From: Salinilacihabitans rarus
GTDB lineage: Archaea > Halobacteriota > Halobacteria > Halobacteriales > Natrialbaceae
DNA length: 64,000 nucleotides
Reading direction: 5' to 3'
Assembly: GCF_024296665.1 (NCBI RefSeq)
Contig: NZ_CP100762.1
Coordinates: 124,001-188,000, forward strand
Part shown: in pieces, positions 29,168 to 46,560 of the stretch
Layout of the letters: each line of letters starts with the position of its first letter
How positions within the stretch are numbered: position 1 is the first letter of the stretch
Made by a program: the position numbers and the translations under genes
The notes under the pieces: model-generated
Database searches by the model: none
Told to the model about the DNA's origin: nothing
What the model saw: only the letters and a program-made list of their open reading frames with translations

Positions 29168-29482
29168 TTACGGGCCGGGTGCGCCGATCGGTTCGGGCAA
29201 CCCGCCGTAGAAGACGACCCCGATGATCATCGTCAGGATCAGCATCCCGACCCACATCGACGTCGTCAGCCCGACGAGGTAGGTGACCCCGAGCAGTCCG
29301 GACTTCGTGTCGCGGGGTTTGCCGGTGAACCACGCGATCAACATGATGTAGATCGGCACCAGGACGACCGCGAAGATGATCCAGGTACCCTCGTTGGCGA
29401 AGCCCGTGAAGCCGTCGGTGCCGTCGTAGCCGTGGTAGAGCAGCTTCGACGGCGCGGTCGCGAGCAGTCCGGTCAGGCTCAT
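29168..29482 (-). CDS. small three-helix membrane subunit of the NrfD-type complex
   Basis: Protein of 104 residues with three predicted membrane helices (TWIIFAVVLVPIYIMLIAWF, LLGVTYLVGLTTSMWVGML, LILTMIIGVVFYGG). The ATG overlaps the stop of the NrfD-type gene by four bases, so it is the last gene of the halocyanin/Fe-S/NrfD operon and probably an accessory subunit of that complex. No cofactor-binding motif is evident. I do not know a family name. Confidence 0.7.
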   Translation of the reverse strand: MSLTGLLATAPSKLLYHGYDGTDGFTGFANEGTWIIFAVVLVPIYIMLIAWFTGKPRDTKSGLLGVTYLVGLTTSMWVGMLILTMIIGVVFYGGLPEPIGAPGP

Positions 29483-30837
29483 GCTTTCACCTCCGTCTCG
29501 GCGGGTTCACCGCCGTGTTCGTGCTCGCCGCGCATGTGTTCGACCGCGTGGAGTTCGACGACCGGAACCATCTTCGACAGGCTGAGGAACAGCAACACCA
29601 CCATGCCGATCGTTCCGGCCAGCGACAGCCACTCGATCGCACTCGGGAAGTACGCCCCGGGCGTGGCCGCGTAGATGTCGAAGTGCGGGTCCATGAACCC
29701 TTCCACGACGAACAGCAGCTTCTCGAGGAAGGTCGCGGTGAGGACGACGACGCCGGCGAGGATGGCGCGGGCCCGGCTGAACAGCGCGGGACGGATGCCC
29801 TGCAGGAAGATGAACGTGAGCGTCCCGAGCACCATCAGCATCGAGAGGATGTAGATCGGGTGTCCGAGCTTGTGCTCGGTGGCCCGGGCCGAATCGAGCG
29901 GCCCGAGGAACGAGCCGTTGATGAGCTGCTGGAGCTGGAACCACAGGAACAGCAGGCAGAAGAACCCGAGCCACAGGAGCAGCCCGCGGAAGATGTCGTC
30001 GGTGAAGATGTGATCCCAGTCGTACGCGCGCCGGAAGGCGGCCGCGATGAGGATCACGCCGCTGATCGCCGACGTCAGCGCGATCGAGAGGAACTGCGGC
30101 CCCTGAATCGCGCCGGTCCAGGCGGGCATCGCCGGCAGCAGCGCGAACAGCCACGGGATCACGCCGCCGTGGAGCAGCAGCGGGGCCATGATGATGACCG
30201 CCGCGGCGAGCCACCAGACCATGCGCTCGACGACCTCGTCTTCCTCCTCGGTGTAGCCGATCGTCAGCAGCTTGTAGATCGGTTCGAACCGGTCGGGGAG
30301 GTCGTCGCGCAGGCGGCTGACGTCGTAGCGCAGCGTCAGACCGAGGTACGTCGCGGTCATCACGAAGTAGGCCGTGATGACGGTCACGTCCCACACCAGC
30401 GGCGAGTTGTTGACCGTGATGTGGTAGTGGCCGATGACGCTCGTGACCATCCGGTCGGGCCGACCCATGTGGACGAGGATGTAGAACCCGGCCGCGGAGA
30501 GGCCGGCGATGGTCAGCATCTCGGCGAGCCGGGCGACCGGCATGTACCGGTCCATGCCCAGCAGGCGGACCGCGGCGGAGAGGATGATCCCGCCGTGGGC
30601 GATGCCGACCCACCAGATGAACGCGCCGATGTACAGCCCCCAGGTCGAGCCGCCGCCGGAGCCCCAGTCGCCGAGACCGGTGACGATCAGCCCCTGCTGG
30701 AGCTGGTAGGCCCAGGCGACGAGGAAGGCGACGAGGGCAAGCGTCGAGATCCCGTAGAGGGCGACGTACGTCTTCGTGAAGGTGTTGATCGGCCGGAGGA
30801 TGTCCTCCTCCGTCGGCAGCCTGGTCTCGGTGCTCAT
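29479..30837 (-). CDS. NrfD/PsrC-type quinol-interacting membrane subunit
   Basis: Integral membrane protein of 452 residues with about ten helices, for example IGAFIWWVGIAHGGIILSAA and LSMLMVLGTLTFIFLQG. The length, and the Gly/His/Trp-rich helix near the N-terminus, match the NrfD/PsrC/HybB family that binds quinol and passes electrons to a Fe-S partner. A His-rich C-terminal tail (MRGEHEHGGEPAE) is unusual and may bind copper. It overlaps both neighbours by four bases in an operon with a four-cluster Fe-S protein and a halocyanin. Confidence 0.88.
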   Translation of the reverse strand: MSTETRLPTEEDILRPINTFTKTYVALYGISTLALVAFLVAWAYQLQQGLIVTGLGDWGSGGGSTWGLYIGAFIWWVGIAHGGIILSAAVRLLGMDRYMPVARLAEMLTIAGLSAAGFYILVHMGRPDRMVTSVIGHYHITVNNSPLVWDVTVITAYFVMTATYLGLTLRYDVSRLRDDLPDRFEPIYKLLTIGYTEEEDEVVERMVWWLAAAVIIMAPLLLHGGVIPWLFALLPAMPAWTGAIQGPQFLSIALTSAISGVILIAAAFRRAYDWDHIFTDDIFRGLLLWLGFFCLLFLWFQLQQLINGSFLGPLDSARATEHKLGHPIYILSMLMVLGTLTFIFLQGIRPALFSRARAILAGVVVLTATFLEKLLFVVEGFMDPHFDIYAATPGAYFPSAIEWLSLAGTIGMVVLLFLSLSKMVPVVELHAVEHMRGEHEHGGEPAETEVKA

Positions 30838-32504
30838 AGCGAGACCCCCGCGTCACCGACGGTTCCGTTGTCGAGGACCTCCTCCTTGCGGTTGTCCCCG
30901 AGGCCGATGCGCTCGTACTGGGTGGGCCCTTCGACCTGCTCGGCCTCCGGCCCGGGCTCCTGTCCGAGGTACGTGACGTTCGGGTGGGTGCCGACGTCCT
31001 CGAGCAGCTTGAACTTCGAGCTGGGGTTGCCGGCGAACTGGCGCAGACGGGCGTTGGCGTCGTCCTCGCTACCGTCGCCGAGCCCCAGTTCGAGGAGGGC
31101 GTCCTCGCTTTCGAGGTCGACGTACTGTTCGAGCGCGTCGACGGAGGCGAGGACCGTCTGCTCTTTCTCGAGGACGCTGTTGTTCTCCCCCTCGCCGGGT
31201 TCGAGGCGCTCGCTGACGATCCCGACCGCCTTCATGACGCCGACGAGTTCGCGGTCGAGCCCGTCGATCGCCTCGATCGCGGCGTCGAGGTCGTCGCCCT
31301 GGCCGAGGTTCTCGTCGATCGTCTCCGGCGAGGGCACGTCGTTGTGGATGTCGATGACCGTCCGGCTCTTGGTCGGGTGCTCGCGGTGCTGGTAGGGGTC
31401 GCTCCGCTCGTCTTTGACGTTGCCGAACTGGATCGCGTTGGGCGGGCAGGCCGTCTCGCAGGCGGTCGTCCCGACCATCTCCTCGCCGCGGGAGCCGTCC
31501 TGGTGGGACGGGCACATCGTACACTTGCTCATCACGCCGCGGGGCGCGCGGCTGTCGACCCAGCGCTCCTCGCCGTGTTCGTACTCGGAGTGGGTGACGT
31601 CCCGCGGCTCCTCGGCGTTCTGCTGCCCCTCGTGGAGCTGTTCGTACGGCGTGTCGGGCTCGTCCCACTGGAAGTAGTTGACGCCGTACGGACAGGCCAC
31701 CTGACAGTACCGGCAGCCGATGCAGACGTCGTAGTCGGTCAGGACGAGGCCGTCCGAGTCCCGCGTGTGGCGGGCGGTCGTCGGGCAGACCTTCTCACAG
31801 GGGGCGTCCGTGCAGTGCTGGCACGGGCGGACGAGCATGTTGTAGTCGCTCGTCCCGCCGATCACGTCGGGTGCCGGGGACGGCGAGGAGGTGAGCTCGT
31901 CCTCGAAGGCCATCACGTACATCCAGTTGACGCCCTGATCGAGCTGGTTCTCCTGGCTACAGGCGACCATACAGGAGAGACAGCCGTCACAGCGCTCGAG
32001 GTCGATCGTCATCCCCCACTGGACGTCGGAGTCCATCTGGGCCTCCGTATTCGACTCCGACTCGGCCGCGGCGAGGGCTCCCTCGGGCTTACCGTCGTCG
32101 ACGGTGCCCCACGCACCGAGGCCGACCGCGGCGGCGCCGACGCCCATCTTCTTCATCACTTCGCGGCGGCTCTCGTCGTCCTCGCCGTCGAGCCTCGCGA
32201 GGGCGTCCGTGAGCCGGTCGCGGCCCTCGTCGACGCGCTCTTCGAGTTCCTCGAAGGCCTCGGCGGTCGGTCGGTCGTCGACGCCGAACTCGTCGAGGAC
32301 CGACTCGTGGTACTTCGCGTGGAACTCCGCCTCGGAGAGCTCGCCTTTGGTGACCCGCATGGCGTCGCGGGCCATGTCGATCCCGAGATCCGTGTCGTAC
32401 TCGGTGTCGTCGAGCATCTCCTCGAGTTCCGACTCCCACTCGGCGCCGAGGGGGTGGAACGATTCGTCTTCGTCGTCCGGGAATGTCGTATCGTCAGCAC
32501 TCAT
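30834..32504 (-). CDS. four-[4Fe-4S]-cluster protein (NrfC/PsrB/ActB type) with internal Tat-like motif
   Basis: Protein of 556 residues. Cluster motifs in order: CDGCLSCMVAC, CQHCTDAPCEKVC, CIGCRYCQVACPYG and a final CTMC with later CETACP, the DmsB/PsrB pattern. A twin-arginine-like motif, ESRREVMKKMGVGAAAVGLGA, lies about residue 110-130, after a 110-residue acidic domain, not at the N-terminus. The C-terminal 170 residues are helical and acidic and do not match standard NrfC. It would relay electrons from the NrfD-type quinol site to halocyanin. Translationally coupled to its membrane partner. Confidence 0.85.
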   Translation of the reverse strand: MSADDTTFPDDEDESFHPLGAEWESELEEMLDDTEYDTDLGIDMARDAMRVTKGELSEAEFHAKYHESVLDEFGVDDRPTAEAFEELEERVDEGRDRLTDALARLDGEDDESRREVMKKMGVGAAAVGLGAWGTVDDGKPEGALAAAESESNTEAQMDSDVQWGMTIDLERCDGCLSCMVACSQENQLDQGVNWMYVMAFEDELTSSPSPAPDVIGGTSDYNMLVRPCQHCTDAPCEKVCPTTARHTRDSDGLVLTDYDVCIGCRYCQVACPYGVNYFQWDEPDTPYEQLHEGQQNAEEPRDVTHSEYEHGEERWVDSRAPRGVMSKCTMCPSHQDGSRGEEMVGTTACETACPPNAIQFGNVKDERSDPYQHREHPTKSRTVIDIHNDVPSPETIDENLGQGDDLDAAIEAIDGLDRELVGVMKAVGIVSERLEPGEGENNSVLEKEQTVLASVDALEQYVDLESEDALLELGLGDGSEDDANARLRQFAGNPSSKFKLLEDVGTHPNVTYLGQEPGPEAEQVEGPTQYERIGLGDNRKEEVLDNGTVGDAGVSL

Positions 32505-32573
32505 TGAGTGTGATCACCTCCGGAACGGTGGTGACCGGGTCGGTCCGCGAGCGGAGCCCGGCGTCGGTCGTCC

Positions 32574-33065
<492 letters not shown>

Positions 33066-33355: not shown

Positions 33356-34045
33356 TCACTCGCTCGTCGCGGGCTCGTTCGCGAGTCCATCTTCGAGCGC
33401 GTCGGGCTCGTCGGCGGTCGGGAGTTCGCGGACGAACCGCTTGATGATGGCTTCCTCGGCGCGGTGGAGCGTCTCGCTGCACGTCGACTTGGCGATGCCG
33501 AGGCGGCCGGCCAGTTCGGTCAGCGAGCAACACCGCGGGGTGTCGTAGTACCCCTCCTCGACCGCCGCCATCACGACCTCGCGCTGGCGCTCGGAGAGCA
33601 ACTGGCTGTCGTGGACCCGCTCGCGGACGTGCTCGATCCGGTACTGGAGGCCGAACCGTTCGAGTTGGCCGGCGAGTTCCGAGAGCCGCTCGCGCGAGCC
33701 GGTCACCTCGACGATGGCCTCGCCGTCCTGGATCTCGACGGGGAGTTCGATCGGCATCCCCGAGTCGCGCGAGGAGAACATGAGCAGCGGTGCGGTCGTC
33801 TCGAAGTGGATCGTCGCCTCGTTTTCGCTCCACTGCGCGAGGGTGAGTTCGGTGATCTGTGGGTGCTCGTCCATGTCCTCGAGGACGCTTGGCACGTCGG
33901 GGCCGGCGATCCGGACGAGCGCGAAGCCCGACTCGGAGCCCGGAACCGCCGCCAGCACCCGGAGCGTCGCCTCCGGGTGTGCCGTCGACACCTGTTGCAC
34001 CCACACCTCTTCCGGCATCGTCACCGCGAGTGTAGCCTGGGCCAT
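33356..34045 (-). CDS. HTH-10 (bacterioopsin-activator type) regulator with Cys-bearing HTH
   Basis: Regulator of 229 residues. An N-terminal sensor-like domain of about 140 residues (mixed alpha/beta, no Cys) is followed by LLSERQREVVMAAVEEGYYDTP and the HTH LTELAGRLGIAKSTCSETLHRAE of the Bat/HTH-10 family. The only three cysteines of the protein, Cys172, Cys173 and Cys189, are all in the HTH, a natural place for a redox, metal or NO switch. The gene is divergent from the first DUF2249 gene, and palindromes lie 1-14 and 38-51 bases before its own ATG, which suggests autoregulation and control of the island. Confidence 0.85.
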   Translation of the reverse strand: MAQATLAVTMPEEVWVQQVSTAHPEATLRVLAAVPGSESGFALVRIAGPDVPSVLEDMDEHPQITELTLAQWSENEATIHFETTAPLLMFSSRDSGMPIELPVEIQDGEAIVEVTGSRERLSELAGQLERFGLQYRIEHVRERVHDSQLLSERQREVVMAAVEEGYYDTPRCCSLTELAGRLGIAKSTCSETLHRAEEAIIKRFVRELPTADEPDALEDGLANEPATSE

Positions 34046-34059
34046 ACGAACACGTTCCC
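34046..34059. promoter_or_regulatory. degenerate palindrome abutting the regulator start
   Basis: ACGAACACGTTCCC, CGAA-N4-TTC with one mismatch in the right arm, directly adjoining the regulator ATG at 34045. It could block transcription or translation initiation. Confidence 0.4.
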
Positions 34060-34082
34060 GATAAGGGTACATACGCCCACCT

Positions 34083-34699: not shown

Positions 34700-34726
34700 C
34701 CACGCGCGGCGACGGCCGCGACGATG

Positions 34727-34740
34727 GCGAACACGTTCGG
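34727..34740. promoter_or_regulatory. CGAA-N4-TTCG palindrome before DUF2249 gene 3
   Basis: GCGAACACGTTCGG, 37 bases before the ATG at 34778. An ATG at 34724 overlaps it and is thus unlikely to be a start codon. Confidence 0.65.
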
Positions 34741-34777
34741 GAGTACGGATAGGGGGCGGCGGGGACGACCCTCCTCC

Positions 34778-35038
34778 ATGGAACAGGCCGCCGTCGTCGA
34801 CGCGACAGGGGCACCGTCGGGCCGGCCGCGGGAGTCGATCGACGTCCGCTCTTGCGGGCCGCCGGAGCCGCTCAGGCGGACCCTCGAACTGCTCGCCGAC
34901 CTCCCGGACGAGACGGTCCTCGTCCAGCGCAACGACCGCGTCCCGCAGTTTCTCTTCCCGAAACTCGACGACCGCGGGTACGCCTACGAGACGGTCGAAC
35001 GCGACGACGACGTCGTGACCGTCATCTGGCGCGAGTGA
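34778..35038 (+). CDS. DUF2249-like protein 3
   Basis: Protein of 86 residues, the most diverged of the three. ESIDVRSCGPPEPLRRTLELL and TVLVQRNDRVPQFLFPKLDD keep the domain outline, but the HDPxPL motif has become RNDRVPQFLF. I chose ATG 34778 because it lies 37 bases after the palindrome, the same spacing as at the other two genes. It is followed by the CtaA-CtaB fusion gene 103 bases downstream. Confidence 0.75.
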   Translation: MEQAAVVDATGAPSGRPRESIDVRSCGPPEPLRRTLELLADLPDETVLVQRNDRVPQFLFPKLDDRGYAYETVERDDDVVTVIWRE

Positions 35039-35141: not shown

Positions 35142-36575
35142 ATGATCGACGCACTCGACCGACGGCGGTTCGCCGACCTGCTCGCGGCGACGACGATCGC
35201 CGCGTACGTCCTCGTCGCGTTCGGCACCGCCGTCTCGACGACCGACGGCGCGACCGCCTGCACGACCTGGCCGACCTGCTCGACGGCGCCGGCGCTCGGC
35301 CCGGCCGCCGGCGACTCGCTCCTCTTCTGGGGCCACCGCGCGGCGGCGCTCGTGGCCGGCCTCCTGCTCGCGGCCGCCGCCCTCGCGGTTCGCCGCGTCG
35401 CCGTCGGCCGCCGCGTCGCCGTCCTCGTCGGCTGTGCGGCCGCCCTCTACCCGGTTCAGGTCGTCCTCGGCGCCGCGCTCGTCGTCGGCGGCCCCGGCGC
35501 GGCCTCCGGCCTCCACCTCGCGCTCGCGACGGGCATCTTCGCCTGCCTGCTCGCCGCGCTCGTGTGGACCCTCGAGGACGCCGTCGATGCCGACGTCGCG
35601 GAACCGGCACGTTCGGCGATCGCCGACCCGGAGGCCGTCGAACCGGCGCCGAGTGCGTCCGCGGTCGGGACCGACCGCCCGGACGGCCGACTCGCCCGCC
35701 TGCGCCGACTGGCCGGCGGCTACCTGACGCTCACCAAACCGCGGTTGATGTGGCTGCTCTGTCTCGTCGCGGTCGCGGGGATGGGGCTGGCGACGCTGAC
35801 CGGCGAACCCCTGGAGGCGTCGACCGCGGTCGCGACGCTCGCCGGCGGCGTCCTCGCGATCGGCGCGAGCGGCACCTTCAACCACGTCTACGAGCGCGAC
35901 CGCGACCGGCGGATGAACCGCACGGCCGACCGGCCGCTGGTCCACGACCTCGTGCCGGCCCGGAACGCCCTGGCGTTCGGCCTCGCGCTCGCGGCCGCGT
36001 CCGCGGTCGTCCTCTGGACGTGGGTGAACGCGCTGGCGGCCGCGCTCACCCTCGTCGCCGTCGCCTACTACGCCGTCGTCTACACGGTGGTGTTGAAGCC
36101 GCACACGGCCTGGAACACGGTCCTCGGCGGCGGCGCGGGGGCGCTCCCCGCGATCATCGGCTGGGCGGCCGTCACCGGGGACGTCGGCCTCCCCGCGGTC
36201 GCCCTCGCGGCGGTGATCTTCCTGTGGACGCCCGCGCACTTCTACAGCCTCGCGATCGCCTACCGCGAGGACTACGCGCGCGGGGGGTTCCCGATGTTCC
36301 CCGTCGTCGAGGGGACCCTCGCCGCGCGGCGCCACGTCGCCTTCTACCTCGGCGCGACCCTCCTGGCCGCGAGCCTGCTGGGCTGGCTGGCCGGCCTCGG
36401 CTGGCTGTACGCGACGACGTCGGTCGCCCTCGGCGCCGTCTTCCTCCGGTCGGTGGTCCGCCAGTACCGCGTCCGGACCGACGAGGTCGCGCTGCGCTCG
36501 TTCTACGTCTCGAACTACTACCTCGGGGCGATCCTGCTGGCCATCGTCGTCGAAACGCTGGTCGTCGCCGCGTGA
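35142..36575 (+). CDS. ctaB: CtaA-CtaB fusion: heme A synthase-like domain plus protoheme IX farnesyltransferase
   Basis: Membrane protein of 477 residues making heme O and heme A for terminal reductases. Residues 1-150 are a four-helix half-size CtaA domain with the external Cys pair CTTWPTC and heme-ligand His candidates in FWGHRAAAL and SGLHLALA. After a charged linker, residues 190-477 are the UbiA-type CtaB domain: LTLTKPRLMWLL, NHVYERDRDRRMNRTADRPL and FLWTPAHFYSLAI. Fusion puts both steps in one chain. Its place between regulator and reductase genes suggests supply of an a-type heme to the heme-copper enzyme here. Confidence 0.9.
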   Translation: MIDALDRRRFADLLAATTIAAYVLVAFGTAVSTTDGATACTTWPTCSTAPALGPAAGDSLLFWGHRAAALVAGLLLAAAALAVRRVAVGRRVAVLVGCAAALYPVQVVLGAALVVGGPGAASGLHLALATGIFACLLAALVWTLEDAVDADVAEPARSAIADPEAVEPAPSASAVGTDRPDGRLARLRRLAGGYLTLTKPRLMWLLCLVAVAGMGLATLTGEPLEASTAVATLAGGVLAIGASGTFNHVYERDRDRRMNRTADRPLVHDLVPARNALAFGLALAAASAVVLWTWVNALAAALTLVAVAYYAVVYTVVLKPHTAWNTVLGGGAGALPAIIGWAAVTGDVGLPAVALAAVIFLWTPAHFYSLAIAYREDYARGGFPMFPVVEGTLAARRHVAFYLGATLLAASLLGWLAGLGWLYATTSVALGAVFLRSVVRQYRVRTDEVALRSFYVSNYYLGAILLAIVVETLVVAA

Positions 36576-36765: not shown

Positions 36766-37857
36766 ATGACCCAGTATCGATCCAACCGACGGCGATTCGT
36801 GCAAGCGATGGGGGCGGCCGGCGCAGTCGCGGTCGCCGGCTGCCTCGGCGGCGATGAAACGGACGACGCCGACCAGGGCGCCGACGACGAGTCCGAAGAC
36901 GACGGGCTGCCGGCGGCCGAGGACGTCGATGTCGACCGCATCGCCCGCGACCCGACCGACATCCCCGACCCCGTCGACTGGGACGAGCCCCGCGAACACG
37001 ACATCACGATCCGGACTCAGGACGTGACCGCCGAGATCGAACCCGGCGTCACGTTCGACTACATGACCTTCGAGGGGCAGGTCCCCGGTCCGATGGTCCG
37101 CGTCCGCCAGGGCGACCGGGTCAACCTCCGGTTCGAGGTGCCGGAGGACTCGAACATGAACATCCACAACATGGACTTCCACGCGGTCTACGGTCCGGGC
37201 GGCGGCGCCGACGCCACGACCATCGGCCCGGGCGACAACGCCGCGGAGATCGCCTTCACCGCCGAGTACGCGGGGGCGTTCATCTACCACTGCGCGGTCC
37301 CGAACATGGACCAGCACATCAGCGCCGGCATGTTCGGTTCGATCCTCGTCGAACCCGAGGACGGCCTCCCCGAGGTCGACCACGAGTACTACCTCGGCCA
37401 GCACGAGATCTACACCGACGGGCAGGTCGGTCAGGAGGGTCACCACACCTTCGACTTCGACGCCATGGCGATGGAGCACCCGACCTACGTGGTGTTCAAC
37501 GGTCAGGCCTACGGGTTCACCGAGGACGGCGTCGGTCCGATGAAAGCCGAGGTCGGCGACACGGCCCGGGTCTACTTCGCCAACGGCGGCCCGAACCTGC
37601 TGAGTTCGCTGCACCCGATCGGGAACGTCTGGAGCAACTACTACCGCGACGGCGACCTGCTCACCGAACCCGACCGGAACATCGAGACGGCGCCGGTCGC
37701 GCCCGGCACGACCACCGTCGGGGAGATGGAGTTCCCCGTCCCCGGCCCGGTCAAGATCGTCGACCACGCGCTCAGCCGCGTCGTCCGCAAGGGCGCGCTG
37801 GCCGTCGTCGACGTCGAGGGCGAGGAGAACCCCGAGGTCTACGAGGAGGACCCCTGA
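36766..37857 (+). CDS. nirK: copper-containing nitrite reductase NirK
   Basis: Secreted lipoprotein-type enzyme of 363 residues reducing nitrite to nitric oxide. Tat-like start (SNRRRFVQAMG) and lipobox VAGC (Cys26). Two cupredoxin domains. Type 1 copper: His134, Cys176, His184, Met189. Type 2 copper: His139, His175 and a C-terminal His334. The catalytic Asp137 and His283 are also present. All ligands are intact, so it should be active. Electrons would come from a halocyanin; the next gene encodes one. The NO produced can be used by the heme-copper reductase 3 kb downstream. Confidence 0.95.
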   Translation: MTQYRSNRRRFVQAMGAAGAVAVAGCLGGDETDDADQGADDESEDDGLPAAEDVDVDRIARDPTDIPDPVDWDEPREHDITIRTQDVTAEIEPGVTFDYMTFEGQVPGPMVRVRQGDRVNLRFEVPEDSNMNIHNMDFHAVYGPGGGADATTIGPGDNAAEIAFTAEYAGAFIYHCAVPNMDQHISAGMFGSILVEPEDGLPEVDHEYYLGQHEIYTDGQVGQEGHHTFDFDAMAMEHPTYVVFNGQAYGFTEDGVGPMKAEVGDTARVYFANGGPNLLSSLHPIGNVWSNYYRDGDLLTEPDRNIETAPVAPGTTTVGEMEFPVPGPVKIVDHALSRVVRKGALAVVDVEGEENPEVYEEDP

Positions 37858-37918
37858 TCCGATCGGGCCGCCTCGCCCGCCCGCCTGCCTCGCCCGTCGA
37901 TCGCACACCCGAACCACC

Positions 37919-38494
37919 ATGACACCCACGTCACGTCGTAGCGTCCTCCGGTCGTCCGGTTGCGCGGCCGTCGTCGCCCTCGCCGGCTGTCTCGGCGACC
38001 TCGCCGACCGCGCGAGCGGCGAGGCCGACGGGACCGGCGAGATGGGCTCGCCCACCGAGCGGATCACCGTCACGGCGACCTCGCAGCCGTACCCGGAGTT
38101 CGACCCGCAGGTCGTCCACCTCGCCGTCGGCGGGACCGTCGAGTGGCTCGTCGAGACGGGCCGTCACGACGTCACCGCCTACCACGGGGACGTCCACGGC
38201 CCCCACCGGTCGCCCGCGGGCGTCGAACCCTGGGGGAGCGGCCGTCTCACGGGCGTCGGCTCGTCCTACGAGCACGCGTTCGACCGGGAGGGCGTCTACG
38301 ACTACGTCGACACCCAGCAGGTCTGTACCTCCCACGAGATCGCCGGGAACATCGGCCGGATCGTCGTCGGCTGGCCCGACCCCGACGAGGAGCCGGGAAT
38401 GACCGACCCCCAGCCCGAACTGCCGTCGCAGGCCGCTCGGGCGATCGAGACGTTCAACGAGGAGACCCGCCCCGTCCTCGAAGCGGGGCCGTAG
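37919..38494 (+). CDS. halocyanin-like lipoprotein lacking the axial Met
   Basis: Protein of 191 residues with a Tat-like start (SRRSVLRSSG), lipobox LAGC (Cys24) and one cupredoxin domain. Copper ligands His83, Cys136 and His139 are present, but the position of the axial Met (His+5) is Asn144 in CTSHEIAGNIG. A Cu site with Asn or no axial ligand would have a changed potential and colour. It lies 61 bases after nirK on the same strand, so it is probably co-transcribed and a candidate donor to NirK or to the CuA subunit. Confidence 0.82.
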   Translation: MTPTSRRSVLRSSGCAAVVALAGCLGDLADRASGEADGTGEMGSPTERITVTATSQPYPEFDPQVVHLAVGGTVEWLVETGRHDVTAYHGDVHGPHRSPAGVEPWGSGRLTGVGSSYEHAFDREGVYDYVDTQQVCTSHEIAGNIGRIVVGWPDPDEEPGMTDPQPELPSQAARAIETFNEETRPVLEAGP

Positions 38495-38600
38495 CGGTCG
38501 GCCCTCCCGCCATCGATGGAACGGGCATGGGTCGTTTTCGCGTCGGCGGCCGATCCCGTCGACCGGGCCGACTGTCGCTGATTCGAACATCAACGACGAC

Positions 38601-38614
38601 CCGAACGCATTCGG
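38601..38614. promoter_or_regulatory. CGAA-N4-TTCG palindrome upstream of sco
   Basis: CCGAACGCATTCGG, perfect five-base arms, 66 bases before the sco ATG. Confidence 0.6.
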
Positions 38615-38680
38615 CGCGTTCCCGGTCGTCGGGAATCCTGACGGCGTTTTAGCGGTCGGAATGCCGAGAAAGAGACGACC

Positions 38681-39433
38681 ATGACCCACACACCATCCGG
38701 CCCCGACAGGCGAACGGTCCTGCGCGCGGCGGGCGCGGCCGCGATCGGGGCGTCCCTCGCTGGCTGTTCACAGGCCAACGTGTTCGGGTCGGAGGACGAC
38801 GGCGTCGTCCTGCCGCCGCCGGAGAACTACGAGAAGGTCGCCGACGTGGACCTCCCACACCCCGCCTACGGCGAGTCGCTGCCGGAGGCGACGGTCCCGG
38901 CGCCGCTGCACGACCGGACGGTCACGACGACGGAGTTCGTCGGCGAGCGCCACGCGATGTTCACGTTCATCTTCACCAGTTGTACGACCGTCTGCCCGGG
39001 GCTGACCGCGACCCTGCGACGCGTCCAGGCCGACGCGACCGAGGAGGGCTACGCCGACGAGGTCGCGTTCCTCCCGGTCACGTTCGACCCCGAGTACGAC
39101 ACGGCCGCGGTCCTCGAGGAGTACGGCGAGGACCACGGCGTCGACTTCGAGGCGGGCAACTGGTACTTCCTGCGCCCGGAGACCCCCGCGGACGCCCGCG
39201 ACGTCGTCGAGGACACGTTCGGCGTCGCCTTCGAGCGGGCCGACGACGCGGACGACGAGATGGACGACGGCGAGATGGACCACGACGAGATGGGCCACGA
39301 CCGCCACTTCGTCCACTCGTCGCTGATCCTGCTGGTCAACGAGGACGGCCTCGTCGAGCGGGCCTACACCGGCGGTCCACCGGGCGCGAACACCGTGATC
39401 GAGGACGCCCGCGCCGTCGTCGAGGGGTGGTAA
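38681..39433 (+). CDS. Sco family copper chaperone
   Basis: Lipoprotein of 250 residues that would deliver copper to the CuA site. Tat-like PDRRTVLRAAG, lipobox SLAGC (Cys29), thioredoxin fold with the copper Cys pair Cys101/Cys105 in SCTTVCPG and the third ligand His212 in HFVHSSL. Residues 188-209 hold a Met/His/Asp-rich insertion (DEMDDGEMDHDEMGHDRH) that looks like an extra copper-binding arm. First gene of a tight run sco-tlpA-ccdA, just upstream of the CuA-type oxidase-like genes. Confidence 0.93.
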   Translation: MTHTPSGPDRRTVLRAAGAAAIGASLAGCSQANVFGSEDDGVVLPPPENYEKVADVDLPHPAYGESLPEATVPAPLHDRTVTTTEFVGERHAMFTFIFTSCTTVCPGLTATLRRVQADATEEGYADEVAFLPVTFDPEYDTAAVLEEYGEDHGVDFEAGNWYFLRPETPADARDVVEDTFGVAFERADDADDEMDDGEMDHDEMGHDRHFVHSSLILLVNEDGLVERAYTGGPPGANTVIEDARAVVEGW

Positions 39434-39436
39434 ACG

Positions 39437-39967
39437 ATGCGCCGTCGCGAGGTCGTCGCGGGCGCCGCCGCCCTCGCGGTCCTCGGCGGCGGCGCGGCCG
39501 CGGTCGGCGAGTGGGACCTCCTCGACGGCGACGCGGTCGTCGACCCGGTCGAACTGGAGACGATCGACGCCCCCGGCAGCGAGGCCGGCACCGCGACGGT
39601 GCCCGAGCGCGGCCGGGTGACGTTCGTCGAACTGTTCGCCACGTGGTGTTCAGTCTGCGAGGCGATGATGGGCCCCCTCTCCCGGGTCCACGCCGACGTC
39701 GGTGACGACGTGCAGTTCGTCTCCGTGACCAACGAACCGATCGGCAACACCGTCACCCGCGCGGACGTCGCCGACTGGTGGCGCGAGCACGGCGGGAACT
39801 GGCCCGTCGCGCTCGACGCCGACCTCGAACTGAGCGAGGCACTCGACGCCTCGGGGGTCCCCTACGCGTTCGTCCTCGACGAGTCGAACGCCGTGACGTG
39901 GTCCGGACGCGGCGAGAAGTCGGCCGACGAGATCCGCACGGCCCTCGACGCGGCCGGTGGTGGCTGA
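39437..39967 (+). CDS. TlpA/ResA-like extracytoplasmic thioredoxin
   Basis: Protein of 176 residues with a membrane-anchoring N-terminus (RRREVVAGAAALAVLGGGAA) and a thioredoxin domain with active site FATWCSVCEAM (Cys71, Cys74). It would reduce the disulfides of Sco and CuA cysteines outside the cell. It begins three bases after sco and overlaps ccdA by one base (TGATG), so the three are one operon. Confidence 0.9.
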   Translation: MRRREVVAGAAALAVLGGGAAAVGEWDLLDGDAVVDPVELETIDAPGSEAGTATVPERGRVTFVELFATWCSVCEAMMGPLSRVHADVGDDVQFVSVTNEPIGNTVTRADVADWWREHGGNWPVALDADLELSEALDASGVPYAFVLDESNAVTWSGRGEKSADEIRTALDAAGGG

Positions 39968-40626
39968 TGGCCGGCGGCGACCTCCTCGGGGCGATGCTGT
40001 TCGCCCTCGGCACGGGCGTCGCGACGTTCTTCTCCCCGTGTGCGTACGCGCTGTTGCCCGGCTACGTCGGCTACTACGTCGCCGCGACCGGCGAGGAGAC
40101 GCCGCCGCTGTCCGGCACGCTGGCGCGCGGCCTCGCGGCGGCGGGCGGCGCGATGGCCGTCCTCGGCGCGCTGTCGCTCGCCTCGATCGTCGCCGGCGAG
40201 GCGCTCGGTCGGGCGCTGCCGTACATCGAGTACGGCGTCGGCGTCGCGCTGATCGCCCTCGGGGCGTGGGTGCTGTACGGCGGGAGCGGCGCCGTCCACG
40301 TCCTCCTGCCCGAGCGCCGGTCGACCGTCGCCGGCTTCGGCGTCTTCGGCGCGATGTACGCCCTCGCCGCCACGGGCTGTGTCCTCCCGCTGTTTCTGGC
40401 GCTGGCGTTCCGGTCGATGACGATGCCGCCGGTCGAGGCGGCGCTCGTCCTCGGCACGTACGCCGTCGGCTTCGGCGCGCTCACCGTCGCGATCACGGTG
40501 GCGACGGCGTTCGGCTACGCCCTCGGCGCCGGCCGCGTCGCCGGCTACGTCGACCGGGTGATCCGCATCGCCGGGGCCGTCCTCGTGGCCGCCGGCGTCG
40601 GCCAGCTGTACGTCGCCGTCCCCTGA
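39967..40626 (+). CDS. ccdA: CcdA-type thiol-disulfide transporter
   Basis: Six-helix membrane protein of 219 residues carrying reducing equivalents from cytoplasmic thioredoxin to the outside. The redox Cys pair is Cys25 in TFFSPCAYALLPGY and Cys138 in LAATGCVLPLF, at family positions. Its partner is the TlpA-like protein just upstream. No cytochrome c maturation genes are seen, so its client is probably the copper site machinery and not cytochrome c. Confidence 0.92.
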   Translation: MAGGDLLGAMLFALGTGVATFFSPCAYALLPGYVGYYVAATGEETPPLSGTLARGLAAAGGAMAVLGALSLASIVAGEALGRALPYIEYGVGVALIALGAWVLYGGSGAVHVLLPERRSTVAGFGVFGAMYALAATGCVLPLFLALAFRSMTMPPVEAALVLGTYAVGFGALTVAITVATAFGYALGAGRVAGYVDRVIRIAGAVLVAAGVGQLYVAVP

Positions 40627-40714
40627 CGCGGCTCGTCCCTTCTCCGCCCTGCGGGCCGCTCCCCTCCCCGTCCCGGACCCTCCCGACGCCCCGCGATCCT
40701 CCGGCGCGCGCCGG

Positions 40715-40728
40715 GGGAATATGTGCGG
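40715..40728. promoter_or_regulatory. weak palindrome upstream of the heme-copper reductase operon
   Basis: GGGAATATGTGCGG: matches CGAA-N4-TTCG with one mismatch in each arm, 47 bases before the ATG at 40776. Supported mainly by position and by the company of the stronger sites. Confidence 0.3.
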
Positions 40729-40775
40729 GACAATGAATAGGGGGGTAACGCGACGACTGCCGGCCGAACGGAGTC

Positions 40776-40925
40776 ATGACTACGTCACATTCGAGCGAAT
40801 CGGCACCGATGATGCAACGGCTGTACGACCGCATCTGGTTGCTCGCGGCGGCAGCGCTGACGTTCTTCCTGCTCTCGTACGTCGTGTGGGGCTGGATGGA
40901 CGTCTTCTCGATTCCAGCGGGGTGA
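40776..40925 (+). CDS. 49-residue single-helix subunit of heme-copper reductase
   Basis: Tiny membrane protein with one central helix: WLLAAAALTFFLLSYVVWGW. It precedes the CuA subunit gene by four bases. Bacterial and archaeal ba3-type reductases carry a small one-helix subunit (IIa/CbaD-like) of this size, so this is the likely equivalent. The start ATG at 40776 is the first in frame after the promoter region. Confidence 0.75.
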   Translation: MTTSHSSESAPMMQRLYDRIWLLAAAALTFFLLSYVVWGWMDVFSIPAG

Positions 40926-40929
40926 ACGG

Positions 40930-41472
40930 ATGACGTCACCGATCAAACCCCCGAGCGGAAACTGGTGGAACCAGCCGGTCAACCGTCGCGAGTCGATCTG
41001 GCTCGGCCTCGGCGTCGGGTGGTCGCTGATCCTCTTTGGCTGGATGAGCGCGTGGACGCGCATCGGCGATCAGAACCCGATCGGCGAGACGTTCCGCGTC
41101 GACGCCGACGAGTACCGCGAGAAGATGGACGCCTACAAGGAGGCGGCGACCGAAACCGACGACGGTCTCGTCCCGGACGGGACCGACGTCTACATCGCCG
41201 CCATGCGCTTCCAGTGGGACGGCGCGCCGGTCGTCCTCGAAGCCGGAACCGAGTACGACATCCACCTCAGTTCCCTCGACGTCCAGCACGGCTTCTCGGT
41301 GCGGCCGGAGGAGACGCTGAGCAAACAGATCAACCTGCAGGTCCTGCCGGGCTACGAGTGGGTCGTCCCGATGACCTTCGACGAACCCGGGACGTACCAC
41401 ATCATCTGTAACGAGTTCTGCGGCGAGGGCCACCGCACGATGCACGGCACGTTCGTCGTGACGGAGGGATGA
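40930..41472 (+). CDS. heme-copper reductase subunit II with CuA site
   Basis: Membrane-anchored protein of 180 residues. One N-terminal helix (WLGLGVGWSLILFGWMSAW), then a cupredoxin domain with the complete binuclear CuA ligand set: His120, Cys160, Glu162, Cys164, His168 and Met171. It accepts electrons from a halocyanin and passes them to subunit I. The short form with one helix is that of ba3-type enzymes. The ATG of subunit I overlaps its stop codon (ATGA). Confidence 0.93.
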   Translation: MTSPIKPPSGNWWNQPVNRRESIWLGLGVGWSLILFGWMSAWTRIGDQNPIGETFRVDADEYREKMDAYKEAATETDDGLVPDGTDVYIAAMRFQWDGAPVVLEAGTEYDIHLSSLDVQHGFSVRPEETLSKQINLQVLPGYEWVVPMTFDEPGTYHIICNEFCGEGHRTMHGTFVVTEG

Positions 41473-43220
41473 CGATGGCACACAGATTCGACGTTCTCGG
41501 CCTGTTCGACAACGAGTACCGCGACGACGGCTACCGGACCTGCTCGGTGACGGGTCTGGAGGTCCACCGCTCCGTCGAGAACCACGTCAAACTGTTCGGC
41601 CTCACGGCGGTCGTCGCGTTGCTGTTCGGCGGCGTCTTCGCGCTCACCGTCGCGACGACTCGCTGGGAGCTGATCGGCCTCCTCGAACCCGGCGACTTCT
41701 ACACGCACCTGAGCATGCACGCCTGGAACCTGCTTATCTTCTGGATGGTGTTCATGGAGGTCGCCATCCTCTACGTCGGCGGGCCGATGGTGCTCGGCCG
41801 GCGCCTGCCGCTGACGGCGGTGGCGAAAGCCGGGTGGGTGACGATGGTCGCGGGCGCGGTCTCGATCAACTACGCCATCTGGACGACCTCGGGGGTCAAC
41901 GAGGCGCCGCTTCTGACCTCGTACGTCCCGTTGCCGTCCGAACCGCTGTTCTACGCGGGCGCGGTCGTCTTCATCCTCGGCACCGTCGTCGCCGCCCTGC
42001 CCTTCTTCGTCGCGATGTGGCGCGAGAAACGCGAGAATCCCGGCGAGACGCTCCCGCTCGTCAGCTTCGGCGCCTTCGTCACCTCGATCATCGCCGTCGA
42101 GGCGCTGCTGGGCGGTCTCGCCGCGTTCGTCCCGACGCTGCTGTGGCGCATCGAGTACATCGCGTGGTGGGACGCCGCCTGGTACCGCCAGATGTACTGG
42201 ATCATCGGCCACGGCTCCCAGCAGATCAACCTCGTCGCGATGATCACGGTCTGGTACTTCCTGACCCACGTCGTCGCCGGCGCCGAGGTCGTAAGCGAGA
42301 AGGTCTCGCGGACGGCCTTCATCCTCTATCTCTTCTTCATCAACCTCGGGGCGGCCCACCACCTGCTCTCGGACCCGGCCGTCTCGACCGGCTGGCGCAT
42401 CTGGAACACCTCCTACGCGTTCTACGGCGCGACGTTCGCGAGCCTCATCCACGCGTTCGCCATCCCCGCCGGCCTCGAAGCCGGCCGCCGCAAGCGCGGG
42501 AAGGGCCGCGGGCTGTTCGGCTGGCTGACGTCGGCACCGTGGAAGAACCCGGTGTTCTCCGCGACGATCTTCTCGATCATCCTGTTCGGCTTCCTCGGCG
42601 GCACCACGGGCGTGATGATGGGCCAGCTCCAGCTCAACATGACCTGGCACAACACGTTCGCGACGGTGGGCCACTTCCACGGGACGGTCGTCCTCGGGAC
42701 GACGGTCGCGTTCATGGGGCTGGTCTTCTTCGTGATCCGGACGATGTTCATGCGCCAGTACGTCTCCGAGCGGCTGGCGTCGGTCCAGCCGTTCTTCTAC
42801 TCGGCCGCGATGGGCGTCGCGGTGCTGATGATGATGTACGTCGGCATCCTCTACGGCGTCCCCCGGCGGACGGCCGAGGTCGTCGAGAACATCCCCGGCA
42901 CCGAGTTCAGCCTCGCGGCCGCCTCGCCGCTGTTCGCCATCTTCGGCGTCTTCGCGCTGCTGGCGATCACCGGCGGGATCCTCTTCGGGGTCGTCGCGGT
43001 CGGCTCGCTCCTGTTTGGCGACCGCGTCGAGGGGCGCGAGGACAACGCGGATCTGGTCGCCGACGGCGGGCTGGCGATGGCGGATGACCCCGACGACCCG
43101 GTCCACGCCTACGAGATGCGCGGGACGTTCGTCCTCTGTCTGGTCTTCCTCGCCGCGTTCGCGACCACGTACGCGCTGAACTGGTACCTGCTGACCCAGC
43201 TCTGGTCGATCGGCGCCTGA
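41469..43220 (+). CDS. heme-copper reductase subunit I, probable nitric oxide reductase
   Basis: Membrane protein of 583 residues with 12-14 helices. Low-spin heme ligand candidate His84 (THLSMHAWN) pairs with one of His402/His404 in VGHFHG; the CuB ligands are His248 and His297-His298. In oxygen reductases the His of helix VI is followed at +4 by the cross-linked Tyr; here the segment is GHGSQQ, so Gln252 replaces it. No nearby Tyr can substitute. Loss of this Tyr is the mark of NO reductases in the superfamily. With nirK next door the most likely reaction is 2 NO to N2O. A low-activity O2 reductase is the alternative. Confidence 0.8.
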   Translation: MTMAHRFDVLGLFDNEYRDDGYRTCSVTGLEVHRSVENHVKLFGLTAVVALLFGGVFALTVATTRWELIGLLEPGDFYTHLSMHAWNLLIFWMVFMEVAILYVGGPMVLGRRLPLTAVAKAGWVTMVAGAVSINYAIWTTSGVNEAPLLTSYVPLPSEPLFYAGAVVFILGTVVAALPFFVAMWREKRENPGETLPLVSFGAFVTSIIAVEALLGGLAAFVPTLLWRIEYIAWWDAAWYRQMYWIIGHGSQQINLVAMITVWYFLTHVVAGAEVVSEKVSRTAFILYLFFINLGAAHHLLSDPAVSTGWRIWNTSYAFYGATFASLIHAFAIPAGLEAGRRKRGKGRGLFGWLTSAPWKNPVFSATIFSIILFGFLGGTTGVMMGQLQLNMTWHNTFATVGHFHGTVVLGTTVAFMGLVFFVIRTMFMRQYVSERLASVQPFFYSAAMGVAVLMMMYVGILYGVPRRTAEVVENIPGTEFSLAAASPLFAIFGVFALLAITGGILFGVVAVGSLLFGDRVEGREDNADLVADGGLAMADDPDDPVHAYEMRGTFVLCLVFLAAFATTYALNWYLLTQLWSIGA

Positions 43221-43303: not shown

Positions 43304-43345
43304 CGAATCCGAATCCGAATACGAATCCGAATACGAATACGAATG
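43304..43345 (+). repeat. seven tandem CGAATN hexamers running into a start codon
   Basis: Seven uninterrupted units (C, C, A, C, A, A and G at the sixth position). The last unit contains the ATG of the next gene at 43343, so repeat number sets the distance from the promoter to the start. Confidence 0.9.
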
Positions 43346-44068
43346 GCTTCCCACTCCGACGCAGACGCGACCGCATCGCCCCTCGAGTTCGTCAGGCGGG
43401 TCATCGGCCGGGCCTGGCGGGACCTCCTGAGCGTCTTCTACACGAACACGCCGATCTGGCGGCTGCTCAAGAGCGTCGGGTTGCTCTTTTTCGGCTTCTT
43501 TTGCTGGTCGGCGAGCAACCTGCTTTTCTCCTACGGCGTCGACTGGACGATCCTCCAGTACGTCCGCGCCTACGGGTTCGTCCTCATCTTCTGGGGGCCG
43601 CTGACCCACGCCGTGATCGTCCCGTACGTGATCCGCCTCCGCCGGAACGCCCGGCGACCGCTCGCCCGGACGCTCGCCCGGCAGGGTTCGAAGCTCACCA
43701 TCGCGGTCTTCCTCGTGCTCGTGCTGGTGCTCGGGACGTATCCGATCGGAGCGATGACCCTCGACTTCGGCTCGTCGCTGCAAGGCGGCGACGGCGGGTC
43801 GGACGTCGACCCCGACCTGCTGTGTACGCAGACGGACGGAACCGTCGACTGTCGACTCTCGGAGTCGGACGGGATCGACCACGTCGTCGTGCTCAGCGGC
43901 GACCGCGAGGTCGACCGCGCCGACGAACCCCCGTTCGAGGTCGCGTTCCACGAGGACGACCTCGAGGAGGTGGTCGGCCAGAAGGAGTTCGTCGTCGAGT
44001 TGCGAGACGAGGACGGCGACACCCTGCGGCGCTACCGTCGGTCGGTGGCGACGATCCCGGAGGGGTAG
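43343..44068 (+). CDS. membrane protein with extracytoplasmic domain, denitrification island
   Basis: Protein of 241 residues. Residues 1-40 are cytoplasmic, then three helices (VGLLFFGFFCWSASNLLFS, VRAYGFVLIFWGPLTHAV, LTIAVFLVLVLVLGTYPIG) and a soluble acidic domain of about 110 residues, strand-rich with a Cys pair in LLCTQTDGTVDCRL. Not recognised. It is 122 bases after subunit I on the same strand, so it may be an assembly factor or extra subunit of the reductase. Confidence 0.65.
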   Translation: MASHSDADATASPLEFVRRVIGRAWRDLLSVFYTNTPIWRLLKSVGLLFFGFFCWSASNLLFSYGVDWTILQYVRAYGFVLIFWGPLTHAVIVPYVIRLRRNARRPLARTLARQGSKLTIAVFLVLVLVLGTYPIGAMTLDFGSSLQGGDGGSDVDPDLLCTQTDGTVDCRLSESDGIDHVVVLSGDREVDRADEPPFEVAFHEDDLEEVVGQKEFVVELRDEDGDTLRRYRRSVATIPEG

Positions 44069-44136: not shown

Positions 44137-46560
44137 TCACTCGTCGAGCACCGACCGCGAGGAGTTGGCGACGACGAGCACGCTGCTGGTCGCCATCGCG
44201 ACCGCGGCGAAAAGCGGGTTGATCGCGCCGGCCGCCGCGAGCGGGATCGCGACGGCGTTGTACAGCAGCGCCCAGCCGACGTTCTCGCGGATGCGACGGC
44301 GCGTGGCGGTCGCGAGGTCGAACACCGACCGGACGTCCCGGAGGTCGCTCGACGCGACGACCGCGTCGGCGGCGTCGGTCGCGCGGGCCGTCCCGCTGCC
44401 GAGCGCGATTCCCACGTCGGCCGCGGCCAGCGCCGGGGCGTCGTTCGTCCCGTCGCCGACCATCGCCGTCACGCCCTCGCGGGAGAGCCGACGGACGGTC
44501 TCGACTTTCCCGTCCGGCGGGACGCCCGCGAACACCCGGTCGACCGCGGGGTGCTCGCGGACGGTCGCCGTCGCGGCCTCGTCGTCGCCGGTCAGCACCA
44601 CCACCTCGCGGTCGGCGACCGCGTCGAGGACGTCCCGCCACTCCGCCCGCGTCCGGTCGCCGACGACGGCGACGGCCCGCGCCCGCCCGCCGTAGCCGAC
44701 CACGGCGGGGAGGCGGCCCCGCTCGCGGGCGTCCGCGACGGCCGCCGCGAGGGCTTCGGGCAGCGGGCCGACCAGCCGTTCGACGAGCGCGGGCGTGCCG
44801 ACGACGACGCGCTCGCCGTCGACCGTCGCGCTCACGCCCTCGCCGGGGTGGCGCTCGAAGTCGGTCGCCTCGGGGCCGGACCCCGTCTCGCCGTCGCCGC
44901 CCGCTTCGAGGCGGCCGCCGTCGGCCGCGACGCTCCCGTCGACCCCCTCGCGCTCGCCCGTCGCGGACGCCACGATGGCGTCGGCGACGGGGTGTTCGGA
45001 GAGTCGCTCGACGGCCGCGGCGCGCTCGACCGCGCCCTCGTCCCCGCGGACGTCGAGGACGGTCATCTCGCCGGCGGTGAGCGTGCCGGTCTTGTCGAAG
45101 ACGACCGTCTCGACGGCCGGGGCCGCCTCGAACAGGGTGGCGTTCGCGACGACGATCCCGCGTCGCAGGGCGTCGCGCAGGCCGGAGGCGACCGCCAGCG
45201 GCGTCGCAAGCCCCATCGCGCACGGGCAGGAGACGACGAGCACCGTCAGCCCGGTCAGCGCGGCGTCGGCGACCGGGGTCCCCGTCGCCAGCCGCCAGCC
45301 GGTGACGGCGACGGCGACCGTCAGCACGAGCGGGACGAAGATCGTCGCCAGCCGGTCCGCGAGGCGCTGGACGCCCGGAGTGGCACTCTGGATCTCCCAC
45401 ATGAGCGAGGCGATCCGGTCGAGCGTGCTCTCGGCGTCCTCGCTCACTTCGACGACGAGCGCGCCGTCGGTCGCGACCGCGCCGCCGACGACCCGGTCGC
45501 CCGGCCGCTTCGTCACGGGCAGGGACTCGCCGGTGAGCACCGACTCGTCGACGGCCGCCGTCCCGTCGAGGACCGTGCCGTCGACGGGGACCCGCTCGCC
45601 GGGTCTGACGAGCACCTCGTCGCCCGGCGCGAGCCGATCGATCGGGACCGTCTCGGTCCCGTCGGCCGTCCGGCGGGTCGCCTCCCGGACCCGCGCGGCG
45701 GTCACGTCCGCGAGCAAATCGGTCGCCCGGCGCTTGATCCGGCGCTCGTAATAGGTGCCGAGGGAGACGACCACGATCACGGCGACGGTGACGTCGTAGT
45801 AGAGGTGCGTGCTCCCGGTCGCGAGCGCGACGGTGCTGTAGGCGTACGCCGAGACGGCCGCGATGGCGATCAGCAGGTCCATGTTCGGCTGGCCGACCCG
45901 CAGGCTGACGTACGCCCCCCGCAGGACGGGGTAGCCGGTGTAGAGGAGGACGCCGCCGGCCAGCAGGCCGATCATCGCCAGCGGGAGGTAGACGCCGACC
46001 GGCGTCGTCGCGTCGACGTCGAGGATGCCCGTCTCGATGCCGACGTAGCTCGGGTAGAGGTAGAACAGGTACCACGGCATGACGAGCATCGCGAGGAAGC
46101 CCCCGACGAGCAGCCGCTGGACCAGTTCTTCGTCGGCGCGGGGGTCGCGCCCCTCGCCGTCGCGGAACCGCGCCCCGTAGCCGTAGCCCGACACCGCCTC
46201 GGGGAGGTCCGTTTCGTCCAGCCGGTCGGGGTCGTAGACGACGCGGGCGGTGTCGGTGGCGTAGCTCGCTTCGACCGCCAGAACCCCGTCCTCGCGCTCG
46301 CCGAGCAGGGAGACGAATCCCTCGCAGGTCGCACAGTGCATCCCGTCGACCGCGAGGAACGCCTCCGCGGCGCCGTCGGGGACCTCCCGCGTGCCCCCCT
46401 CGGCCGCCCGTTCGACGACGTCGTCGGCCCGGACGTCGTCGACCGCGTCGAGGGTCGCGCTCACCTCGAGACAGCCCCGACAGCAGAAGGTCCCGTCGAC
46501 GCCCTCCGCGGTCACCGGCTGCTCGGGCGTCGGGAGGTCACAGAGCGAGCAGGAACTCAT
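44137..46560 (-). CDS. copper-translocating P1B-type ATPase (CopA/FixI-like)
   Basis: Membrane pump of 807 residues. N-terminal Cys-rich metal site (CSLCDLP, then TFCCRGCLE), a heavy-metal-associated domain with GMHCATC, the membrane metal site SCPC, phosphorylation motif [15 protein letters not shown] (HP motif) and [11 protein letters not shown]. The Cys-rich N-terminus ahead of the HMA domain is that of FixI/CtpA-type exporters that load copper into extracytoplasmic enzymes. This fits NirK, halocyanins and CuA next to it. A palindrome lies 42 bases before the ATG. Confidence 0.93.

Follow-up and report, generated by a model that had tools for sequence, protein, structure and literature searches.

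The closest described relatives of the system reported here belong to eNOR, a family of heme-copper nitric oxide (NO) reductases proposed in 2008 (Hemp & Gennis) and defined by a glutamine in place of the oxygen-reductase tyrosine together with a cupredoxin subunit II; gene clusters for it were reported across the Halobacteria in 2022 (PMC8756737). One member, from another organism, has been biochemically characterised (Murali et al. 2024), as reported in PMC11388526. A 2021 survey of haloarchaeal denitrification listed qNOR as the only NO reductase class, and had 12.8% of the potential denitrifiers end at NO (PMC8400030). We analyzed a 64,000-nucleotide stretch of the Salinilacihabitans rarus genome (GCF_024296665.1, NZ_CP100762.1, positions 124,001–188,000), referred to as the window, whose own positions are used as coordinates below. 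It carries nirK, the copper nitrite reductase gene, close to the genes for subunits II and I of a heme-copper enzyme (Table 1), and we consider it very probable that NirK and this enzyme, acting in that order, form an outward-facing branch leading from nitrite to nitrous oxide (N2O), a greenhouse gas, in this organism. Because the glutamine at the tyrosine site, the cupredoxin subunit II and the occurrence of such clusters in Halobacteria match the published description, the haloarchaeal subunit I is assigned, from its sequence, as a further member of the eNOR family.

Subunit I has 583 amino acids, and translation reproduced the coordinates, reading frame and residue positions given in an earlier note on this DNA, which had singled out the enzyme as a probable NO reductase. 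All of the metal-ligand histidines are kept (His84, His248, His297-298, His402 and His404), and Gln252 lies four residues past the CuB ligand His248. When subunit I was aligned by phmmer with Thermus ba3 (E about 5e-35), GHGSQQ fell over GHPIVY and Gln252 on Tyr237, so that the helix VI tyrosine of the B-family (ba3) oxygen reductases is absent. A MAFFT alignment gave the same placement: at this column the ba3-type proteins have Tyr (8/8), and the relatives from haloarchaea (32/32) and from bacteria (83/83) all have Gln. The Q motif played no part in finding the 32 haloarchaeal sequences and 3 from plasmids; the remaining 80 bacterial ones came from a genome-collection scan and were partly chosen by a pattern containing QQ, and Gln conservation among these 80 is therefore not independent evidence. 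A substitute active-site tyrosine was sought at the cbb3 position, which we take to be helix VII, six residues before the HH pair; this candidate was rejected, as the position holds Ile291 here and Ile or Leu in all eNOR. As a side observation, GHFH reads GHFK in 4 of the 83 bacterial eNOR, including a Thermus protein (L071 8983-10668), replacing the low-spin heme ligand histidine (equivalent to ba3 His386) with lysine and suggesting a His-Lys ligated heme in these four.

The enzyme resembles the B-family ba3 oxidase of Thermus thermophilus (1EHK/1XME) in its metal-ligand histidines, its CuA subunit II and its fold: the AlphaFold model of subunit I (mean predicted local distance difference test score, pLDDT, 85.1; predicted template-modelling score, pTM, 0.89) found ba3 oxidases as its best PDB matches (E 4e-18 to 9e-18). 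Part of the ba3 K channel is shared, since its residues Tyr248, Ser261 and Ser309 are retained as Tyr263, Ser276 and Ser325, whereas Tyr237, Tyr244 and Thr312 are replaced by Gln252, Ile259 and His328, and Trp239 by Asn254. For the eNOR family one conserved proton channel is predicted. Residues that are invariant and specific to eNOR in the alignment include Glu97, Asn254, Tyr287, Tyr316 and His328. It is conceivable that the protein is a true high-affinity ba3-like oxygen reductase, which lost the tyrosine yet still reduces O2 in vivo and has nirK as a coincidental neighbor, given that ba3 provides the closest solved structures by sequence as well as by fold, that three K-channel residues persist, and that oxidases typically come with a CuA subunit II, CtaAB and Sco. 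We judge this very unlikely. Gln252 is invariant, and the genome already encodes one ba3 enzyme with the normal tyrosine (GHPVVYF) and three aa3-type oxidases; the characterised family member is reported as an NO reductase in PMC11388526. The phylogeny and the gene associations described below weigh against oxygen reduction as well.

A class-wide search of 194 haloarchaeal genomes recovered subunit I orthologues in 32 of them, representing 14 genera, at 63–89% identity, with a clear gap below them (ba3 proteins reach 32% at most), so that the observation is not a matter of chance. The earlier note had used eNOR as a name for archaeal enzymes, but the family extends to bacteria: relatives at 38–42% identity reside on plasmids of Thermus, Defluviimonas and Thermomicrobium, and others occur in many metagenome-assembled genomes and isolates of Pseudomonadota, Gemmatimonadota, Nitrospirota, Chloroflexota and other phyla. 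In an IQ-TREE phylogeny of 52 proteins, in which bacterial eNOR were recognised by their Gln and subunit II, without formally labelled eNOR, and from which sNOR, gNOR, nNOR and bNOR were left out, haloarchaeal and bacterial eNOR formed a single clade (100/99) containing a haloarchaeal subclade (100/99). The ba3 (100/99), aa3 (99/98) and cNOR/qNOR (100/100) proteins made up separate clades, which gives the enzyme the family placement that the earlier note had left to a tree and sets it apart from all ba3 tested. Subunit I is far from the cNOR/qNOR clade and is not of the NorB/NorZ type, having a CuA subunit II in place of NorC or a fused N-terminal domain. The CuA site is complete, as previously claimed, with all six ligands present (H120, C160, E162, C164, H168 and M171), and subunit II aligns with bacterial eNOR subunit II at 39–44%. 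Proposed NO dismutases (Nod) are divergent NO reductase homologues of the same superfamily, and chemistry of that kind (2 NO to N2 + O2) in place of reduction would be a further alternative; Nod enzymes, however, are qNOR-derived, single-subunit and free of CuA, whereas here a CuA subunit is present for electron entry and the clade is a different one, and we regard dismutation as extremely improbable.

Comparison with the other described NO reductases places the haloarchaeal enzyme nearest to bacterial eNOR, with which it shares the Gln at the Tyr position, a CuA subunit II encoded directly upstream, the B-family relationship and the clade. The two differ in their surroundings, as a cytochrome b gene is present in 64 of 80 bacterial loci whereas haloarchaeal loci have blue-copper neighbors. 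The Bacillus enzyme bNOR (CuA-NOR) is likewise described as a CuA-fed NO reductase of oxidase ancestry but, compared by description and outside the tree, has Asn where eNOR has Gln (PMC8756737, Table A4). The qNOR (NorZ) type, predicted to catalyse the same reaction and present in one copy in this genome, is a single quinol-fed subunit of ~785 amino acids without CuA, is distant in the tree, and is unlinked to nirK here.

Gene associations argue for NO as the substrate. A distance of 4.7 kb separates eNOR from the only nirK that the genome was found to contain; the qNOR gene (G000:C1:2495754-2498108, L005) is 2.3 Mb off by coordinate. Among the 194 genomes nirK was present in all 32 with eNOR, compared with 104 overall (Fisher p=2e-10, uncorrected for relatedness), and in each of the 8 genera with a nirK contrast between eNOR-positive and eNOR-negative members it was more frequent in the positive ones (sign test p=0.004). 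In 13 genomes from 6 genera nirK and eNOR are no more than 10 kb apart, in several arrangements, and 10 genomes have both genes with no qNOR detected by homology search. Two Thermus thermophilus plasmids provide a separate line of evidence. At a locus they share, pTTJL1801 of strain JL-18 (L163 8197-12457) carries norC-norB-norH and nirS, and pTthSNM6-6b of strain SNM6-6 (L071 5814-10692) carries eNOR subunits II and I and a NirK-like gene. The flanking DNA of the two plasmids matches at 97% identity over 7.0 kb and at 96% over 3.6 kb, and an Rrf2 regulator as well as a DUF542 protein are encoded there. Judged from these sequences, this is a clean cassette exchange of cNOR plus NirS for eNOR plus the NirK-like protein, as expected if eNOR is an NO reductase, and it offers independent genomic evidence that eNOR can replace cNOR. 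The constant presence of nirK, the 10 nirK genomes in which eNOR is the sole NO reductase found, and the Thermus exchange together support the function, so that the sequence of nitrite to NO to N2O put forward in the earlier note is well supported at the genomic level; the same constancy of nirK and the swap with cNOR are what an oxygen reductase with a chance neighbor would not lead us to expect.

Several observations weigh against this nitrite-to-N2O branch. Seventeen haloarchaeal genomes (e.g. G008, G019, G050 and G062) have nirK but lack eNOR and any detected qNOR, which shows that nirK can occur without either reductase; they may genuinely produce NO, or they may possess another NO reductase that has escaped recognition. 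No nirK or nirS was present within the fetched flanks of 64 of the 80 bacterial eNOR loci, many of these flanks being short. The invariant Tyr287 (ten residues before the HH pair, helix VII) and Tyr316 (helix VIII) mean that the family has tyrosines of its own, and we found no activity measurement on any haloarchaeal eNOR in the literature. In addition, the genome already has a second NO reductase, and NO removal consequently does not require eNOR. A separate qNOR would also suit a division of labor in which eNOR reduces both NO and O2 at the oxic-anoxic border, in NO detoxification under microoxia. Heme-copper enzymes often cross-react. According to PMC11388526, eNOR reduces NO under microoxic conditions. 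This bifunctional role overlaps with the nitrite-to-N2O branch, and with the loss of the tyrosine arguing against efficient O2 chemistry we consider it possible but rather unlikely.

In the proposed nitrite-to-N2O branch, NirK would reduce nitrite to NO and the adjacent two-subunit eNOR would convert two NO to N2O. A small blue copper protein, with a halocyanin as the candidate, would deliver electrons to CuA, from where they would pass to the low-spin heme (His84/His404) and on to the site formed by the second heme (His402) and CuB (His248, His297 and His298), where Gln252 replaces the oxygen-reductase tyrosine. The probable route for protons is a K-type channel in remodelled form, made up of the ba3-derived Tyr263, Ser276 and Ser325 and the eNOR-specific Tyr287 and His328, and Tyr287, in helix VII, may assume part of the role of the lost tyrosines. 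Heme and copper could be supplied by CtaAB, the Sco, TlpA and CcdA-like proteins, and the P-type ATPase.

A conserved third gene (43343-44068), missed by the earlier note, follows the subunit I gene directly or at a short interval at every haloarchaeal eNOR locus with the flank available. Of the 32 eNOR genomes, 31 have an orthologue and the remaining one (G034) stops at a contig edge; no intact orthologue was present in the 162 haloarchaeal genomes without eNOR or at the 80 bacterial eNOR loci, where its absence separates the bacterial from the haloarchaeal branch. One genome (G036, L180 9381-9873) retains a truncated, frameshifted remnant; eNOR and nirK were not found there, although both are present in two genus-mates, as expected if the partner eNOR was lost. 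The protein begins with helices that read as membrane segments and ends in an Ig/FN3-like sandwich, where pLDDT is mostly 80–92 in a single-sequence model (pTM 0.39), and a Cys161/Cys170 pair is invariant. Profile searches of Pfam, NCBIfam and PDB, and of plasmids, gave no family for it, and the fold matches of the model were generic Ig/FN3 domains only. We take it as a probable third subunit or assembly factor confined to haloarchaea. We hold in even balance the broader proposal that haloarchaeal eNOR is a three-component enzyme, with this protein as an obligate third subunit or a docking/assembly factor adapting a CuA-type NO reductase to blue-copper donors, and that eNOR is the physiological partner of NirK, replacing qNOR or working alongside it. 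The gene poses a concrete, testable question.

The genome as a whole may equip the organism for more than this one branch. It encodes NosZ, over its family cut-off, and a candidate archaeal-type nitrate reductase from the type II DMSO-reductase family. With the conventional qNOR, which is far from the module and differs in kind from eNOR, the organism has two NO reductases, and Salinilacihabitans rarus may be capable of complete denitrification. Of the 27 nirK genomes sampled here without detected qNOR, 10 carry eNOR, and part of the class assigned NO as end product is therefore probably N2O-producing. The qNOR-only statement (PMC8400030) should be revised, a correction already implicit in PMC8756737. 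Public annotation labels eNOR genes as cytochrome oxidases (likewise PMC8756737), and for this reason they are easily overlooked. The family itself was known; what is new is how strongly eNOR is linked to nirK, the Thermus exchange and, set against the literature other than the 2024 eNOR paper, the conserved third protein.

Table 1. Genes of the eNOR–nirK locus and its neighborhood, in window positions.
Feature	Position	Strand	Evidence
HTH_10 (Bat-like) transcriptional regulator, divergent	33356..34060	-	Pfam HTH_10 63 bits, over cut-off; weak BAT domain match
DUF2249 protein	34724..35038	+	Pfam DUF2249 53 bits, over cut-off; syntenic in close relatives
Fused half-CtaA + CtaB (heme O/A synthesis)	35142..36575	+	TIGR01473 heme o synthase 292 bits, over cut-off
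NirK copper nitrite reductase	36766..37857	+	TIGR02376 370 bits, over the NCBIfam cut-off of 296 bits; metal ligands
Cupredoxin-like lipoprotein, degenerate halocyanin type	37919..38494	+	Halocyanin profile 27.9 bits, below the 93.8 cut-off
Sco copper chaperone	38681..39433	+	Pfam SCO1-SenC 57 bits, over cut-off
TlpA/redoxin-like thioredoxin	39437..39967	+	Pfam Redoxin 48.6 bits, over cut-off
CcdA-like membrane protein	39964..40626	+	Motif FSPCAYALLPGY and context only
eNOR subunit II, CuA cupredoxin	40930..41472	+	CuA ligands; overlaps subunit I gene
eNOR subunit I, heme-copper NO reductase (predicted), Gln252 at Tyr position	41469..43220	+	Alignments, tree, model
Haloarchaeal eNOR-associated protein: predicted membrane helices and Ig/FN3-like outer domain	43343..44068	+	Co-occurrence, fold
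Copper-translocating P1B-ATPase (FixI/CtpA-like)	44137..46560	-	TIGR01511 433 bits, over cut-off

The remaining genes of the locus largely bear out the surroundings described in the earlier note (Table 1). NirK has all the residues expected of it, namely type-1 copper ligands H134, C176, H184 and M189, type-2 ligands H139, H175 and H334, and catalytic D137 and H283, the roles being those presumed for the NirK family. Sco and its thioredoxin-like neighbor were confirmed by profile. The CcdA-like assignment is weaker than had been stated: only motif and context agree with the name, and the open reading frame had no match in Pfam or NCBIfam. Of the heme A synthesis genes that had been named, the heme O synthase (CtaB) part was borne out, and the CtaA-like N-terminal half of the fusion scored below cut-off (COX15-CtaA, 20.5 bits); the fusion gene adjoins eNOR in most relatives. 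Two halocyanins had also been claimed, and the upstream one was recovered by profile. The one right after nirK was not: its motif is CxxHxxxxN, with Asn for the axial Met, and because this Met is missing and the Asn is kept in the orthologues found, the protein is not an ordinary halocyanin and, from its sequence, may not be a simple electron carrier.

The P1B-ATPase gene adjoins eNOR in most family f1 loci and several others, and a role in copper supply is probable. The HTH_10 protein, whose gene adjoins the module in many close relatives, is likely a local regulator. Upstream on the minus strand (29479-33065) are genes for an NrfD-like membrane protein, a DsrO-like Fe-S protein and a good halocyanin (142 bits), whose products could form a quinol:halocyanin oxidoreductase feeding NirK and eNOR; the NrfD-like and DsrO-like genes are retained beside the module in several relatives.

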